A stretch of DNA of 64,000 bases. Origin: Candidatus Poribacteria bacterium. Lineage in GTDB: Bacteria; Poribacteria; WGA-4E; WGA-3G. Shown in pieces: positions 9,360 through 15,724 of the stretch. The stretch is taken from positions 4,024,204-4,088,203 of the forward strand of contig OY282386.1 in NCBI GenBank assembly GCA_958295945.1, given 5' to 3'. The position numbers were made by a program, and so were the translations under genes. Position 1 is the first letter of the stretch. Each line of letters begins with the position of its first letter. A model generated the notes under the pieces. That model was not told the DNA's origin, made no database searches, and saw only the letters and a program-made list of their open reading frames with translations.

Positions 9360-10361
9360 ATGCAAAAACAGACACAGATTATGTTAATCCTGGGCGGTCT
9401 ATTGCCAGTATCCATTTGTGTAGCAGCCGGTGTAGGGGCATATCAAATTCTACCGTGGAAAATACCAAGAATTCTTTTTCTGCAGGAGGATGGTTTTGCT
9501 GTATTGCTCTATGTGCGTTTTCCACGTGTCGTTTTAGCAGCACTTGTTGGTGCAATGTTAGCGATATCCGGAACAACCCTTCAAGGTATTTTTCGTAATC
9601 CGTTAGCAGATCCAGGTTTAATTGGTATTACAGCAGGAGCAGGATTAGGTGCATCAGTATGGATTGTCCTCTCAGACGGTGGCATATTGGGTATATGGGG
9701 ACTACCGATTGCTGCCTTTGCATGTGGTATGTTTGTAACTATCGGTGTCTGGAAGATATCGGAAACGCAAGGCAAAGTGCAAACGGTAACACTACTGCTC
9801 GCGGGTATCGCTCTCAACAGTCTCGCGGGAGCGTGTATCGGATTAATGACATTCCTCGCTGACGATGAACAACTACGAAGTCTCACCTTTTGGTTACTCG
9901 GTGGTTTTGGTGGTGCCACATGGTCTGTTGTACTTGTTACGCTTCCGATTTCAATTGTAGGCATGTTTGTGTTGTTGCAACAAGCATCTTCCTTGAATGC
10001 GATCAGTCTTGGTGAATCGGAAGCGTATCATCTCGGTGTTCCAACTGAATCTTTGAAGAGGCTGTCTGTATTCGGTGTTGCTTTAACGGTAGGTGCAGCG
10101 GTATCAGCAGCAGGTGGAATCGGGTTCATTGGACTCGTCGTTCCGCATCTTTTAAGACTGATCGGTGGTGCAGATCATCGATATGTATTGCCCGGTTCAG
10201 CATTGGGCGGTGCCATATTATTGATCCTTGCCGACTTGTGTTCGCGCACTATTGTTGTCCCTGCTGAATTACCTGTTGGGGTTGTCACAGCTTTGTTAGG
10301 TGGACCATTTTTTCTGTGGTTATTAATAAGACAGAACTTACGCATTTTTAAAAATTATTGA
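9360..10361 (+). CDS. hmuU: haem ABC transporter permease, C-terminus replaced by IS end
   Basis: Inner-membrane permease of the FecCD/BtuC family with about ten transmembrane helices over 333 residues. Family motifs include RFPRVVLAALVGAMLAISG, FRNPLADPGLIGI, the ATPase-contact region LGESEAYHLGV and GFIGLVVPHLLRLI. The last eight or so codons (NLRIFKNY) come from the end of the insertion sequence at 10336. The native tail after LLIRQ has therefore been replaced. This tail is variable in the family, so the protein is probably still functional. The ATPase gene follows only after the IS. Confidence 0.9.
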   Translation: MQKQTQIMLILGGLLPVSICVAAGVGAYQILPWKIPRILFLQEDGFAVLLYVRFPRVVLAALVGAMLAISGTTLQGIFRNPLADPGLIGITAGAGLGASVWIVLSDGGILGIWGLPIAAFACGMFVTIGVWKISETQGKVQTVTLLLAGIALNSLAGACIGLMTFLADDEQLRSLTFWLLGGFGGATWSVVLVTLPISIVGMFVLLQQASSLNAISLGESEAYHLGVPTESLKRLSVFGVALTVGAAVSAAGGIGFIGLVVPHLLRLIGGADHRYVLPGSALGGAILLILADLCSRTIVVPAELPVGVVTALLGGPFFLWLLIRQNLRIFKNY

Positions 10362-11417
10362 AGGATTAGAGAGTTGAAATCGCATATAATCATCCAATAA
10401 ACTTTGTTTTAGTTCATAAATTGTTTTACCATGTTTGCGCGCAACACGTTTCAAACAGACCCATACTTGAAAACAACAAGCAATATGATTTCTTTGGGCA
10501 CGCAACTTGCGGCATTGACATTTACCAATACCGGTGACTTGTTTGATCTCACGATGAAGTTGTTCAATCTTCCAACGCACGCGACATTCTTGGCGTGTCG
10601 CATCCGCATCCGATTGAGATAAATCGTTTGTCGCAATATATTCCGTGCGTCCGTTAGAGGAGACTAACCGGAACAACTTCACTTGATGCCCTTTTGGAAA
10701 CTTCTTGATGTGCACGTGCTTTCCGTGTTGCGTTTCTGTCTGTGTCCAAGATAACTTTTGGACTTGTTGGTGTGGTTCAACGCCGTCCGTATCGTTTACA
10801 AGACGATTGCGTTTCAGTGGCACATAATAAATCTTAGAAAGTTTTTCAATCGCTTTCATGACTTGCATGGATGCATACCAACTATCCATTAGCACCGTCC
10901 GAAACGGGAGTTGTTTTTTGAAGACCGCGTTTTGCAGCATGTCTAATAAATGGTCTATTTTGGTTTTTCCATCATGGTCTTTGTCGTAAATGCGATAATC
11001 AATGATCCAATACTCTTGCGTCTTTGGGTTGACATAGAGACACGTTACAATACCGATGCCATCAACGACTTTTTTGTCGCTACCACTCCACTGAGGACGG
11101 AGAGCTTCAATCTTTTTCGCATGCGGTTTAGGTAGCACAACATCATCAAAAGCAATGTGCCCTTGATCATCAAACTCAATGTCATCCTGGACAGACTGCC
11201 AGAGTTCGCTTGATGGAATGTTCTCATTTCTCAAAAAACGATTGAGTTGATCATGGCTCCATTTCTCAGACTGATCACCAAAGTACGTTTGCGTCCAGTT
11301 CGTAAAACTTGATAACAAAAATTGACAATAATCGGAAAATAGGTTTACCTTCTTTTTAGATTGTGTCCATGTAGTCATAATAGAATAGTATACACCATTT
11401 TATAAAAATGCGTAAGT
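10336..11417 (-). mobile_element. IS701-like insertion sequence between hmuU and hmuV
   Basis: About 1.08 kb with terminal inverted repeats ACTTACGCATTTTTA at the left (10336-10350) and its complement at the right (11403-11417). It carries one transposase gene on the minus strand, opposite to the haem operon. I could not define a clean target duplication. The element splits the haem importer operon, so hmuV may need its own promoter, possibly supplied by the right end of the IS. Confidence 0.85.
10338..11378 (-). CDS. DDE transposase, IS701-like
   Basis: A 346-residue transposase with an intact frame. The N-terminal region has the SHDQLNRFLRN helix found in IS701/IS4-like enzymes. The catalytic acid candidates are in IAFDDVVLPK, in VLMDSWYAS and the glutamate in WKIEQLHREIKQ. 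The stop codon lies inside the left terminal repeat. No frameshift is visible, so the element may still be active. Confidence 0.88.
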   Translation of the reverse strand: MTTWTQSKKKVNLFSDYCQFLLSSFTNWTQTYFGDQSEKWSHDQLNRFLRNENIPSSELWQSVQDDIEFDDQGHIAFDDVVLPKPHAKKIEALRPQWSGSDKKVVDGIGIVTCLYVNPKTQEYWIIDYRIYDKDHDGKTKIDHLLDMLQNAVFKKQLPFRTVLMDSWYASMQVMKAIEKLSKIYYVPLKRNRLVNDTDGVEPHQQVQKLSWTQTETQHGKHVHIKKFPKGHQVKLFRLVSSNGRTEYIATNDLSQSDADATRQECRVRWKIEQLHREIKQVTGIGKCQCRKLRAQRNHIACCFQVWVCLKRVARKHGKTIYELKQSLLDDYMRFQLSNPSIIFKNA

Positions 11418-11503
11418 CCTGTAAGATTCAAACGAGAGATTCTTCTATAGTATATATCTATTATTTGAGGAAGAAGACACTGTGGAATGCAGGAATAAGC
11501 ATC

Positions 11504-12274
11504 ATGATTGAAGTAGAAGATGTCGGTTACGAGATCAACGGTAAGTGGTTGGTGCGAGACATAAATGTTACAATTAAAGATGGGTTGTTGTGGGGATTCA
11601 TCGGTCCCAATGGTGCGGGAAAATCCACCCTCTTACGTCTAATTTCAGGCGAACTTACACCCACAACTGGTGAGATAAGGTTTTTCGGGAAACCGATTAA
11701 TAGTTATGAACCAAAGGAACTTGCACGACTTCGGGCCTACTTACAACAAAAAAGAGATATAAATTTTCCTTTTACAGCATTAGAGGTAGTATTGTTTGGA
11801 CGTTATCCGTATTTGAACGGAACAAAAGAGACAACCAGTGATATCGCAATTGCCGAGAAAGCACTTCAAAATGTAGAAGCTGATGGATTTACATACCGTC
11901 TTTATCAAACCTTATCAGGTGGCGAAGCGAGTCGTATTGATATTGCACGAATCCTTGCCCAATCTCCAGGACTGTTTTTGTTAGACGAACCGACAAATCA
12001 TCTGGATCCAAGACATCAACTACAAATACTCAATCTCTGTAAAAGTATATGTAATCAAGGCAAAACCGTGATCACAGCAATCCATGATCTGAATCTTGCA
12101 TCAATGTATGCTGACCAACTCTTGATGTTAAAAAATGGAGTTTCTGTTGCTTATGGATCACCAGATGTTGTATTAACGCAAAAAATGTTAACCGAAACCT
12201 ATAATATATCGTTTTATATTATACCGCATCCCGATGGTTTTCCATGGGTGATACCGTGTACAAATAATTTTTAG
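11504..12274 (+). CDS. hmuV: haem ABC transporter ATP-binding protein
   Basis: Cytoplasmic ATPase that powers HmuTU. I chose ATG 11504 because it gives the usual 256-residue length. The frame upstream to 11408 begins within the IS end. Walker A is GPNGAGKST, the Q-loop is LQQKRDINFP, the signature is LSGGEASR and Walker B is LFLLDEPTNHLDP. ITAIHDLNLA carries the switch histidine. It was presumably co-transcribed with hmuTU before the IS entered. Confidence 0.92.
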   Translation: MIEVEDVGYEINGKWLVRDINVTIKDGLLWGFIGPNGAGKSTLLRLISGELTPTTGEIRFFGKPINSYEPKELARLRAYLQQKRDINFPFTALEVVLFGRYPYLNGTKETTSDIAIAEKALQNVEADGFTYRLYQTLSGGEASRIDIARILAQSPGLFLLDEPTNHLDPRHQLQILNLCKSICNQGKTVITAIHDLNLASMYADQLLMLKNGVSVAYGSPDVVLTQKMLTETYNISFYIIPHPDGFPWVIPCTNNF

Positions 12275-14433: not shown

Positions 14434-14504
14434 GTAAAGTCAATTTAAGACAAAGTTTGCGAACTATTGTTAATAGGACCACACAACTGTAGTAAGATAA
14501 TCTT

Positions 14505-14745
14505 GGAACTAATGCAAGAATCTAAGTTTTACCAACGCCAGCGTGAAAAAACCATCAGGGAAACTACCATTAAACACATTTTGGCAGTGCTCAATACAAA
14601 ATATTCTGCGGAGATTGTGAGTGCTATAACGCCTATGATTCAGAACATCAACGATTTGCAACGACTTGACGATCTACATACGGCCGCAGCAAAGGCACAG
14701 AACATTGAGACATTTACGCAAATGTTGAATAAATAGAAACGCAGG
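14505..14745 (+). repeat. duplicate of the Rpn gene 3' end (copy 1)
   Basis: About 240 bp repeated at 15438-15677 in direct orientation. The first half carries scattered differences, while the last 100 or so bases through the stop codon are identical. This points to recent duplication or gene conversion. Confidence 0.9.
14512..14736 (+). CDS. stand-alone C-terminal domain of Rpn-family protein
   Basis: A 74-residue ORF beginning MQESKFYQRQREKTIRE and ending TFTQMLNK. It is a near copy of the last 74 residues of the Rpn protein at 14806-15669. It begins at the same ATG as the internal start candidate in that gene and has the same length. Its own ribosome site is weak (GGA). It is either a truncated copy or a free small protein corresponding to the intragenic antitoxin described for E. 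coli Rpn nucleases. Intact reading frame and duplicate start favour a small protein, but expression is unproven. Confidence 0.6.
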   Translation: MQESKFYQRQREKTIRETTIKHILAVLNTKYSAEIVSAITPMIQNINDLQRLDDLHTAAAKAQNIETFTQMLNK

Positions 14746-14805
14746 CGGAGCGAAACAATTGGTTATCTCTTGATTTTTCTATCATACTACCATATAATAA
14801 ATCTT

Positions 14806-15669
14806 ATGGCACAAAACTACGATAATATGGCAAAAGATCTCCTGACAGATTTCGCAGTTGATATTTCACAGTTTGTCCTTGGTGTGAATGATGTGGAGGT
14901 ACTTGAAAACATAGATACAGAACAACAGATTATAATAGGGCAACGCACCGACAGCACAAAACGTATTCGTGTTGATAATCGTGAAGCCATTTTACATATT
15001 GAATTGCAACTTCGCGATAGCACACACAAACCGATGTGGGCGCGAAATGCAGCATATCAAGGATACCTTGTCGGCAGGCACGAAATACCTGTCTACTCAA
15101 ACGTCATTTACTTCCATCCTAACGCTGGAAGAAATGACACCGGGAAATTTGAATATAGTTGGCACGGATACAAATATACCTTGCACTATAAGGTAATACG
15201 ACTTTTCGATATAGATGGACAAGCGGCTTTGGAAATGAATGCCCCAGGTATCCTACCCTTTACACCGCTTATGAAACCGCCTGAAGGGATGGGTATTGAA
15301 CAGTGGGCTAAAGAATGTGTTGACGCAACGATTGATGCTCCTGTCGATCAGCAGACGCGAGGAGATCTACTTTACGCTATTTCCCTTTTTGGGAGTATAA
15401 TACATAATTCTGAGTTGTATGAAATACTCATACAGGAGGAACTAATGCAAGAATCTAAGTTTTACCAACGCCAAAGCGAGAAAATCATCAGGGAAACTAC
15501 CATTAAACACATTTTGGCAGTGCTCAACACAAAATATTCTGATGATATTGTGAGGGCTATAACGCCTATGATTCAGAACATCAACGATTTGCAACGACTT
15601 GACGATCTACATACGGCCGCAGCAAAGGCACAGAACATTGAGACATTTACGCAAATGTTGAATAAATAG
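14806..15669 (+). CDS. Rpn family PD-(D/E)XK nuclease (recombination-promoting nuclease type)
   Basis: A 287-residue protein of the Rpn/transposase_31-like family, known for DNA cleavage and antiphage toxicity. I used ATG 14806 (MAQNYDNMAKDLL); no good ribosome site distinguishes it from other starts. The nuclease core is visible as ILHIELQLR (Glu66-x-Gln68). It is followed by GLLPFTPLM-like family features (here PGILPFTPLMKPP) and the typical C-terminal helix EELMQESKFYQRQ. A strong internal start sits at 15445. The duplicated 3' end lies directly upstream. Confidence 0.8.
   Translation: MAQNYDNMAKDLLTDFAVDISQFVLGVNDVEVLENIDTEQQIIIGQRTDSTKRIRVDNREAILHIELQLRDSTHKPMWARNAAYQGYLVGRHEIPVYSNVIYFHPNAGRNDTGKFEYSWHGYKYTLHYKVIRLFDIDGQAALEMNAPGILPFTPLMKPPEGMGIEQWAKECVDATIDAPVDQQTRGDLLYAISLFGSIIHNSELYEILIQEELMQESKFYQRQSEKIIRETTIKHILAVLNTKYSDDIVRAITPMIQNINDLQRLDDLHTAAAKAQNIETFTQMLNK
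15434..15447 (+). promoter_or_regulatory. internal Shine-Dalgarno and ATG inside the Rpn gene
   Basis: AGGAGG (15434-15439) is followed five bases later by an in-frame ATG (15445). This is a stronger ribosome site than that of the full-length gene. It would produce the last 74 residues (MQESKFYQRQ to QMLNK), equal in extent to the stand-alone copy at 14512-14736. Confidence 0.65.
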
Positions 15670-15724
15670 AAACACAGGAGAGTGAGTATAAGATAAATTG
15701 TGAGGACTAATGCTTTTAAACATA

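Follow-up and report, generated by a model that had tools for sequence, protein, structure and literature searches.

The question raised by this locus is why a nuclease gene should stand beside a separate copy of exactly that part of itself that begins at an in-frame internal start. Self-comparison of the window (the entire 64,000-nucleotide stretch of Candidatus Poribacteria DNA that was analyzed) found a two-copy direct repeat of 241 nucleotides with a spacing of 933, the second copy forming the 3′ end of a full-length gene (Table 1). The initial annotation had described the full-length open reading frame (ORF), the AGGAGG and in-frame ATG within it, and a 74-codon ORF upstream, and the repeat and each of these elements were recovered as described. 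From comparisons of sequence, we consider it likely that the locus is an Rpn-type gene-within-gene toxin-antitoxin (defense) system with a leaderless RpnL, a Shine-Dalgarno (SD)-led RpnS, and an extra free-standing RpnS. RpnL would be translated from a transcript starting at or next to its own ATG, and the C-terminal 74 residues would be translated separately, as RpnS, via the internal start and its consensus SD. RpnS is predicted to attach to those helices in RpnL that form the same C-terminal part, and to keep the nuclease in check, and the ORF at 14512 would be an extra, free-standing RpnS.

Table 1. Positions of features at the rpn locus, in window coordinates
Feature	Position	Strand	Remarks
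5′ flank of free ORF (CCACACAACTGTAGTAAGATAATCTTGGAACTA)	14479..14511	+	Common to free-standing rpnS of another Poribacteria genome (L035)
Repeat copy 1, upstream	14505..14745	+	95% identity; starts just 3′ of where parent has AGGAGG
Free-standing rpnS-like ORF, 74 aa	14512..14736	+	ATG is counterpart of internal start; no SD (ATCTTGGAACTAATG); no promoter at cutoff used
Predicted rpnL promoter: TTGATT 14770-14775, 17-nt spacer, TATAAT 14793-14798	14770..14798	+	7 nt to ATG 14806
rpnL, predicted full-length Rpn-type PD-(D/E)XK nuclease, 287 aa, 864 bp, ATG start	14806..15669	+	Active-site D6, D49, E66-x-Q68, R80 by family position
Internal Shine-Dalgarno AGGAGG	15434..15439	+	GGAGG 5 nt before start in 140/154 homologues
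Repeat copy 2, embedded/downstream, the 3′ end of rpnL	15438..15678	+	95% identity
Intragenic rpnS, 74 aa, predicted all-helical antitoxin domain	15445..15669	+	Conserved internal start; AF2 model

Between the upstream and embedded copies there are 10 differences in 222 coding positions (4.5 synonymous and 5.5 nonsynonymous; omega, 0.3). Their identical 3′ ends, noted earlier as 100 bp, extend over 118 bp (14623 to 14740). The repeat is not due to chance, because the internal motif is kept across about 150 homologues and the two pieces match each other at an E value of 8e-39. The AGGAGG itself lies outside the duplicated segment, which starts just 3′ of it, and the upstream copy has ATCTTGGAACTAATG instead.

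The product of the full-length gene is very likely a highly divergent Rpn-type nuclease with an Rpn-like function. Residues D6, D49, E66, Q68, and R80 were invariant in two homologue alignments, of 23 and 60 sequences, and their order corresponds to the RpnA active-site residues D11, D63, E82, Q84, and R94 of Escherichia coli (PMC5350276). An AF2 model (pLDDT, 91) has a PD-(D/E)XK-like order of strands and helices, with D49, E66, and Q68 placed on strands 49-56 and 59-68, and an all-helical C terminus. The window protein matched no Pfam, NCBIfam, or PHROGs model. Among its relatives, 16 of 60 matched TIGR01784 (Rpn family; best E value, 4.5e-5), a count that repeat segments possibly confound, and PF04754 was matched by 1 of 23, at 0.034. 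Alignment to E. coli RpnA/B/C/E with hhalign was colinear over 244 columns but weak (E value, 0.0018; probability, 15%). Foldseek found no significant match to the AF2 model in the PDB, the weak matches including the Cap4 and Kpn2I nucleases, and a PDB search by sequence returned nothing significant. The sole PADLOC model matched was "putative invertase," in 9 of 23 relatives. Matches to FliH among the 60 relatives are probably artifacts of the repeat segments.

The source genome, that of a Candidatus Poribacteria sponge symbiont assembled as one contig of 5.34 Mb, contains 37 stretches matching the window protein, about 20 of them full-length, and every same-family genome searched carries between 3 and 29 rpn matches. 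The best 80 relatives in the genome collection all belong to Candidatus Poribacteria. In the open-access literature, no report of a Poribacteria Rpn or of a leaderless RpnL was found.

In 100 nonredundant full-length homologues, the internal start follows the motif GGAGG-N5-ATG/GTG. Of 93 informative rows, 92 have G at the third position of codon −4, compared to 19.2 expected from codon use; glutamate at codon −3 is GAG in 94 of 94 (30 expected); and where the internal start position encodes valine, the codon is GTG in 14 of 14 (25% expected). The residue carrying the conserved third-base G ahead of GAG varies (S/P/L/Q/K/T/R), and at −2 the residues found are mainly E/G/D/A/V, all with G-first codons. 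Since synonymous positions are fixed while amino acids change, the site is conserved as nucleotides rather than as residues. Although the homologue rows share ancestry and so lack independence, the changes in amino acids show that the site is conserved beyond mere inheritance, and an equivalent internal site is kept in more distant Poribacteria families. This constraint on codons −4 and −3 and on the start, beyond what codon usage predicts, led us to reject a chance or amino-acid origin of the internal SD. It is very improbable that the start is an unselected by-product of the amino-acid motif E-E-x-M-Q-E-S: parts of that motif are conserved as protein (E211, M214, and S217), but synonymous positions are fixed, the −2 residue moves among G-first codons, methionine gives way to valine only as GTG, and in the 2 of 100 homologues where TGG replaces the start codon (L013 and L077) GGAGG is lost as well.

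There is thus strong sequence support for the internal start of a separately translated, putative RpnS antitoxin. The conserved active-site residues, and an internal SD and start that are kept at the level of nucleotides, support the original reading of an Rpn-family nuclease with an intragenic start. The signature of three constrained codons plus ATG/GTG could serve as a general sequence-based route to intragenic proteins. Upstream of the internal SD, no sigma70-type promoter signal stood out from that obtained after shuffling synonymous codons (mean score, 8.05 versus 7.92). Four-residue repeats 8 to 20 residues past the internal start are present in many paralogues (e.g., GIEQGIEQG) and absent from the window gene.

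Two variants of the internal site were also seen. The subfamily of L013 (source genome, C1:3840971) and L077 keeps the nuclease residues without the usual embedded antitoxin start. At C1:118377-119357 of the source genome (L015/L030), a foreign insert of about 130 bp splits rpn just before the internal SD and leaves the SD, start, and RpnS intact.

Initiation of the full-length protein appears to follow different rules. A leaderless-type promoter (TTGACA-like and TATAAT-like boxes) was found at 80 of 152 full-length rpn genes (53%) versus 7 of 286 background ORFs (2.4%), the background being drawn with a generous start choice from about 390 kb of sampled source-genome DNA plus the window, so that one of the seven is the window rpnL itself. 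In the 80 leaderless-type genes, the −10 box ends 5 to 8 nt upstream of the ATG, with a mode of 6; the remaining 47% of rpn genes fail the leaderless criterion. An SD is absent at 138 of 152 RpnL starts. Because the promoter boxes place the transcription start at or a few bases from the ATG, a leaderless rpnL mRNA is predicted. We infer that a single mRNA could be read by two modes of initiation, leaderless for RpnL and consensus-SD for RpnS.

For E. coli, published work leaves open how Rpn toxins come free of the antitoxin embedded in them (PMC10327210). If SD-led initiation were impaired, through phage takeover, cleavage of the anti-SD, or stress that favors leaderless translation, RpnS would fall while RpnL continued to be made, arming the nuclease. 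This scenario is speculative, and we regard it as rather unlikely; if true, the split in translation mode would provide Rpn systems with a switch for activation.

The initial annotation had proposed searching other genomes for the same 3′ duplicate, and free copies do recur beside many paralogues, nearly always downstream. After removal of duplicates, 154 full-length genes were accompanied by 45 C-terminal pieces. Relative to an intact gene, 29 of the pieces were assigned to the downstream class (a few of these being weak or distant matches) and 2 to the upstream class. In the same 154-gene set, no N-terminal-only duplicate was found beside an intact gene, N-only matches being broken genes or longer 3′ duplicates. 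Free copies in relatives begin at the same methionine and are consistently intact. Most comparisons of a free copy with a nonparent copy gave omega values of 0.07 to 0.3, with one pair at 0.95. The joint probability of all free ORFs staying open without selection was about 4e-12, a rough figure from a model that allows only substitutions and assigns half of the divergence to the free branch, for copies that were found through similarity and are not all independent.

Signals for expression of the free copies were more variable. Of 25 free copies, 7 have GGAGG, 9 a shorter SD, and 9 none, and at the cutoff used none has a promoter of its own. Two overlap the stop codon that lies upstream. Given this lack of promoters and the overlaps, most free copies probably depend on the rpnL transcript for expression. 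These patterns are consistent with a family in which free copies would arise repeatedly, via tandem arrays or partial duplications, in nearly every case next to a full-length gene, and would then stay open and recombine with embedded C termini; their likely use would be as an extra or alternative-allele antitoxin.

Individual loci differ in arrangement. A tandem array in the source genome (C1:209051-212960; L119) holds two full-length rpn genes and three 3′-only copies; the repeated unit spans the 3′ half of rpn and some 300 bp of the DNA that follows, and its copies are mosaic around the internal start. In another Poribacteria genome, an array (L216) runs full-free-full-free-free, with a complete GGAGG in every free copy. 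The free copies of L149, L155, and L164 form a clade of their own. At L143 (1964-2354) and L179 (3600-4047), a neighboring ORF of 242 to 254 aa has two weak matches (30 to 41%) to the RpnS tail and is possibly another protein using the RpnS-tail domain.

Compared to the nearly always downstream copies found elsewhere, the window's free copy is unusually placed, upstream of the rpnL promoter and hence off the rpnL transcript. The best relaxed promoter match, TTAATA-17-TAAGAT, lies 13 nt before its ATG and below the cutoff. With no SD and no convincing promoter, expression of the copy at 14512 is doubtful. The earlier suggestion that the antitoxin is present twice holds for an intact free-standing ORF, and the proposed increase in dose is unproven for this copy.

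The origin of this copy is also more complex than first proposed. Syntenic proA-rpn-lgt loci in three genomes (G002, G003, and G014) have one rpn and lack the upstream piece, yet the 5′ flank of the window free ORF matches the flank of the downstream free copy of L035 (genome G004), and that flank only (84% over 73 nt; E value, 1e-15). A simple recent local duplication was rejected on account of this shared flank. Because the flank has a homologue next to a free rpnS of another species, the origin of the piece appears to be older: a piece that predates the species split, or that was inherited with an array, and whose ORF was later homogenized with its neighbor fits better. Of the earlier proposal of "recent duplication or conversion," the duplication is too simple, and an older copy homogenized via gene conversion, or a tandem-array remnant, fits better. 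Deletion of an upstream full-length copy would explain the free-then-full gene order.

Such a deletion leads to the strongest alternative, in which the embedded RpnS is real and the ORF at 14512 is a nonfunctional 3′ remnant of a deleted tandem rpn, its similarity kept solely by gene conversion. We give this account close to an even chance. The window copy has neither an SD nor a clear promoter and sits off the rpnL transcript, the three syntenic loci do without it, and tandem arrays with partial 3′ copies do occur in the source genome (C1:209-213 kb). However, the reading frame is unbroken from the exact start codon, the free copies of other genomes consistently stay open, and omega, although based on few changes against the neighbor (0.3), is 0.07 against the L035 free copy at a dS of about 1.7.

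In AU tests, C-terminal data rejected N-terminal clades (P = 0.0006 and 0.0035) and N-terminal data rejected C-terminal clades (P = 8e-5), indicating that the embedded tails have not shared the history of the N-terminal parts. Free copies also match embedded tails found in a different genome: the L168 free copy is 96% identical to the L179 embedded tail, while L168's own embedded tail is of another type; the L153 free copy is 99% identical to the L143 embedded tail; and L035 free copy 1 is 89% identical to the L032 embedded tail, the N termini of those two being 91% identical. As RpnS of E. coli is specific to its own RpnL, tail exchange would be expected to change specificity. A sister-type free copy could then act as immunity, and the earlier idea of protection against a related nuclease is plausible given the L168/L179 match.

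Free copies may even be reservoirs for C-terminal switching, in which a tail recombined into the full gene changes its specificity and the displaced or donor tail stays behind as immunity to the earlier type. The three free-versus-embedded matches and the rejection of a shared N- and C-terminal history agree with this idea, but ordinary recombination among paralogues (3 to 28 per genome) would yield the same patterns, as would loss of the N terminus from a second full copy, and the direction of transfer is not shown. We hold switching to be a tentative possibility that we lean away from, and retain the reading of free copies as extra or alternative-allele antitoxins. With a fixed antitoxin start, half of its toxin starts predicted to be leaderless, and its tail swapping and duplication, the Poribacteria family would offer a direct test of both the translation-mode switch and antitoxin exchange.

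Much of this design is already known from E. coli, for which intragenic RpnS, free-standing rpnS (ypaA and rpnCS), and specificity set by repeat length have been published (Zhong et al. 2023, PMC10327210). RpnAL/RpnAS and its relatives share with the Poribacteria family the D, D, ExQ, R nuclease active site, a small C-terminal protein from an in-frame internal start with an SD, a helical C-terminal domain, four-residue repeats past the internal start in paralogues (EQGIEQG), and many paralogues with tandem arrays (PMC10327210). Free-standing copies in E. coli likewise begin at the same ATG as the parent's internal start, with ypaA (rpnES) beside rpnE and an rpnCS copy beside rpnC (PMC10327210; L219, 7817-8002). 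These copies are downstream, and ypaA has AGGAGA before its ATG, whereas the window copy is upstream and has no SD.

Other differences from E. coli were evident. The window protein is too distant in sequence for recognition by Pfam or NCBIfam, and the C-terminal domain is 74 aa here versus about 50 in E. coli Rpn. E. coli rpnA has AAGGA upstream of the long start, whereas Poribacteria RpnL starts mostly have no SD and half look leaderless. Internal transcription starts are known in E. coli, whereas an internal promoter signal was not found in Poribacteria. Recurrence, conversion, and allele exchange of free copies are documented more widely in Poribacteria. Toxin-antitoxin genes are also reported to be enriched among the leaderless mRNAs of Mycobacterium tuberculosis (PMC3898074, PMC8485053); the families are unrelated to Rpn, and here only the toxin start is predicted to be leaderless, the overlapping antitoxin start being SD-led. 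On the basis of these comparisons, the elements that appear to be new are the nucleotide-level start signature, the division between leaderless and SD-led starts, and the extent to which free copies and exchange of tails occur.

Elsewhere in the window, a DDE transposase (IS) is encoded on the minus strand at 10338-11378. It lies within a cluster for uptake of iron or cobalamin (9360-12274), where it separates the gene for the FecCD permease from that for the ABC ATPase.
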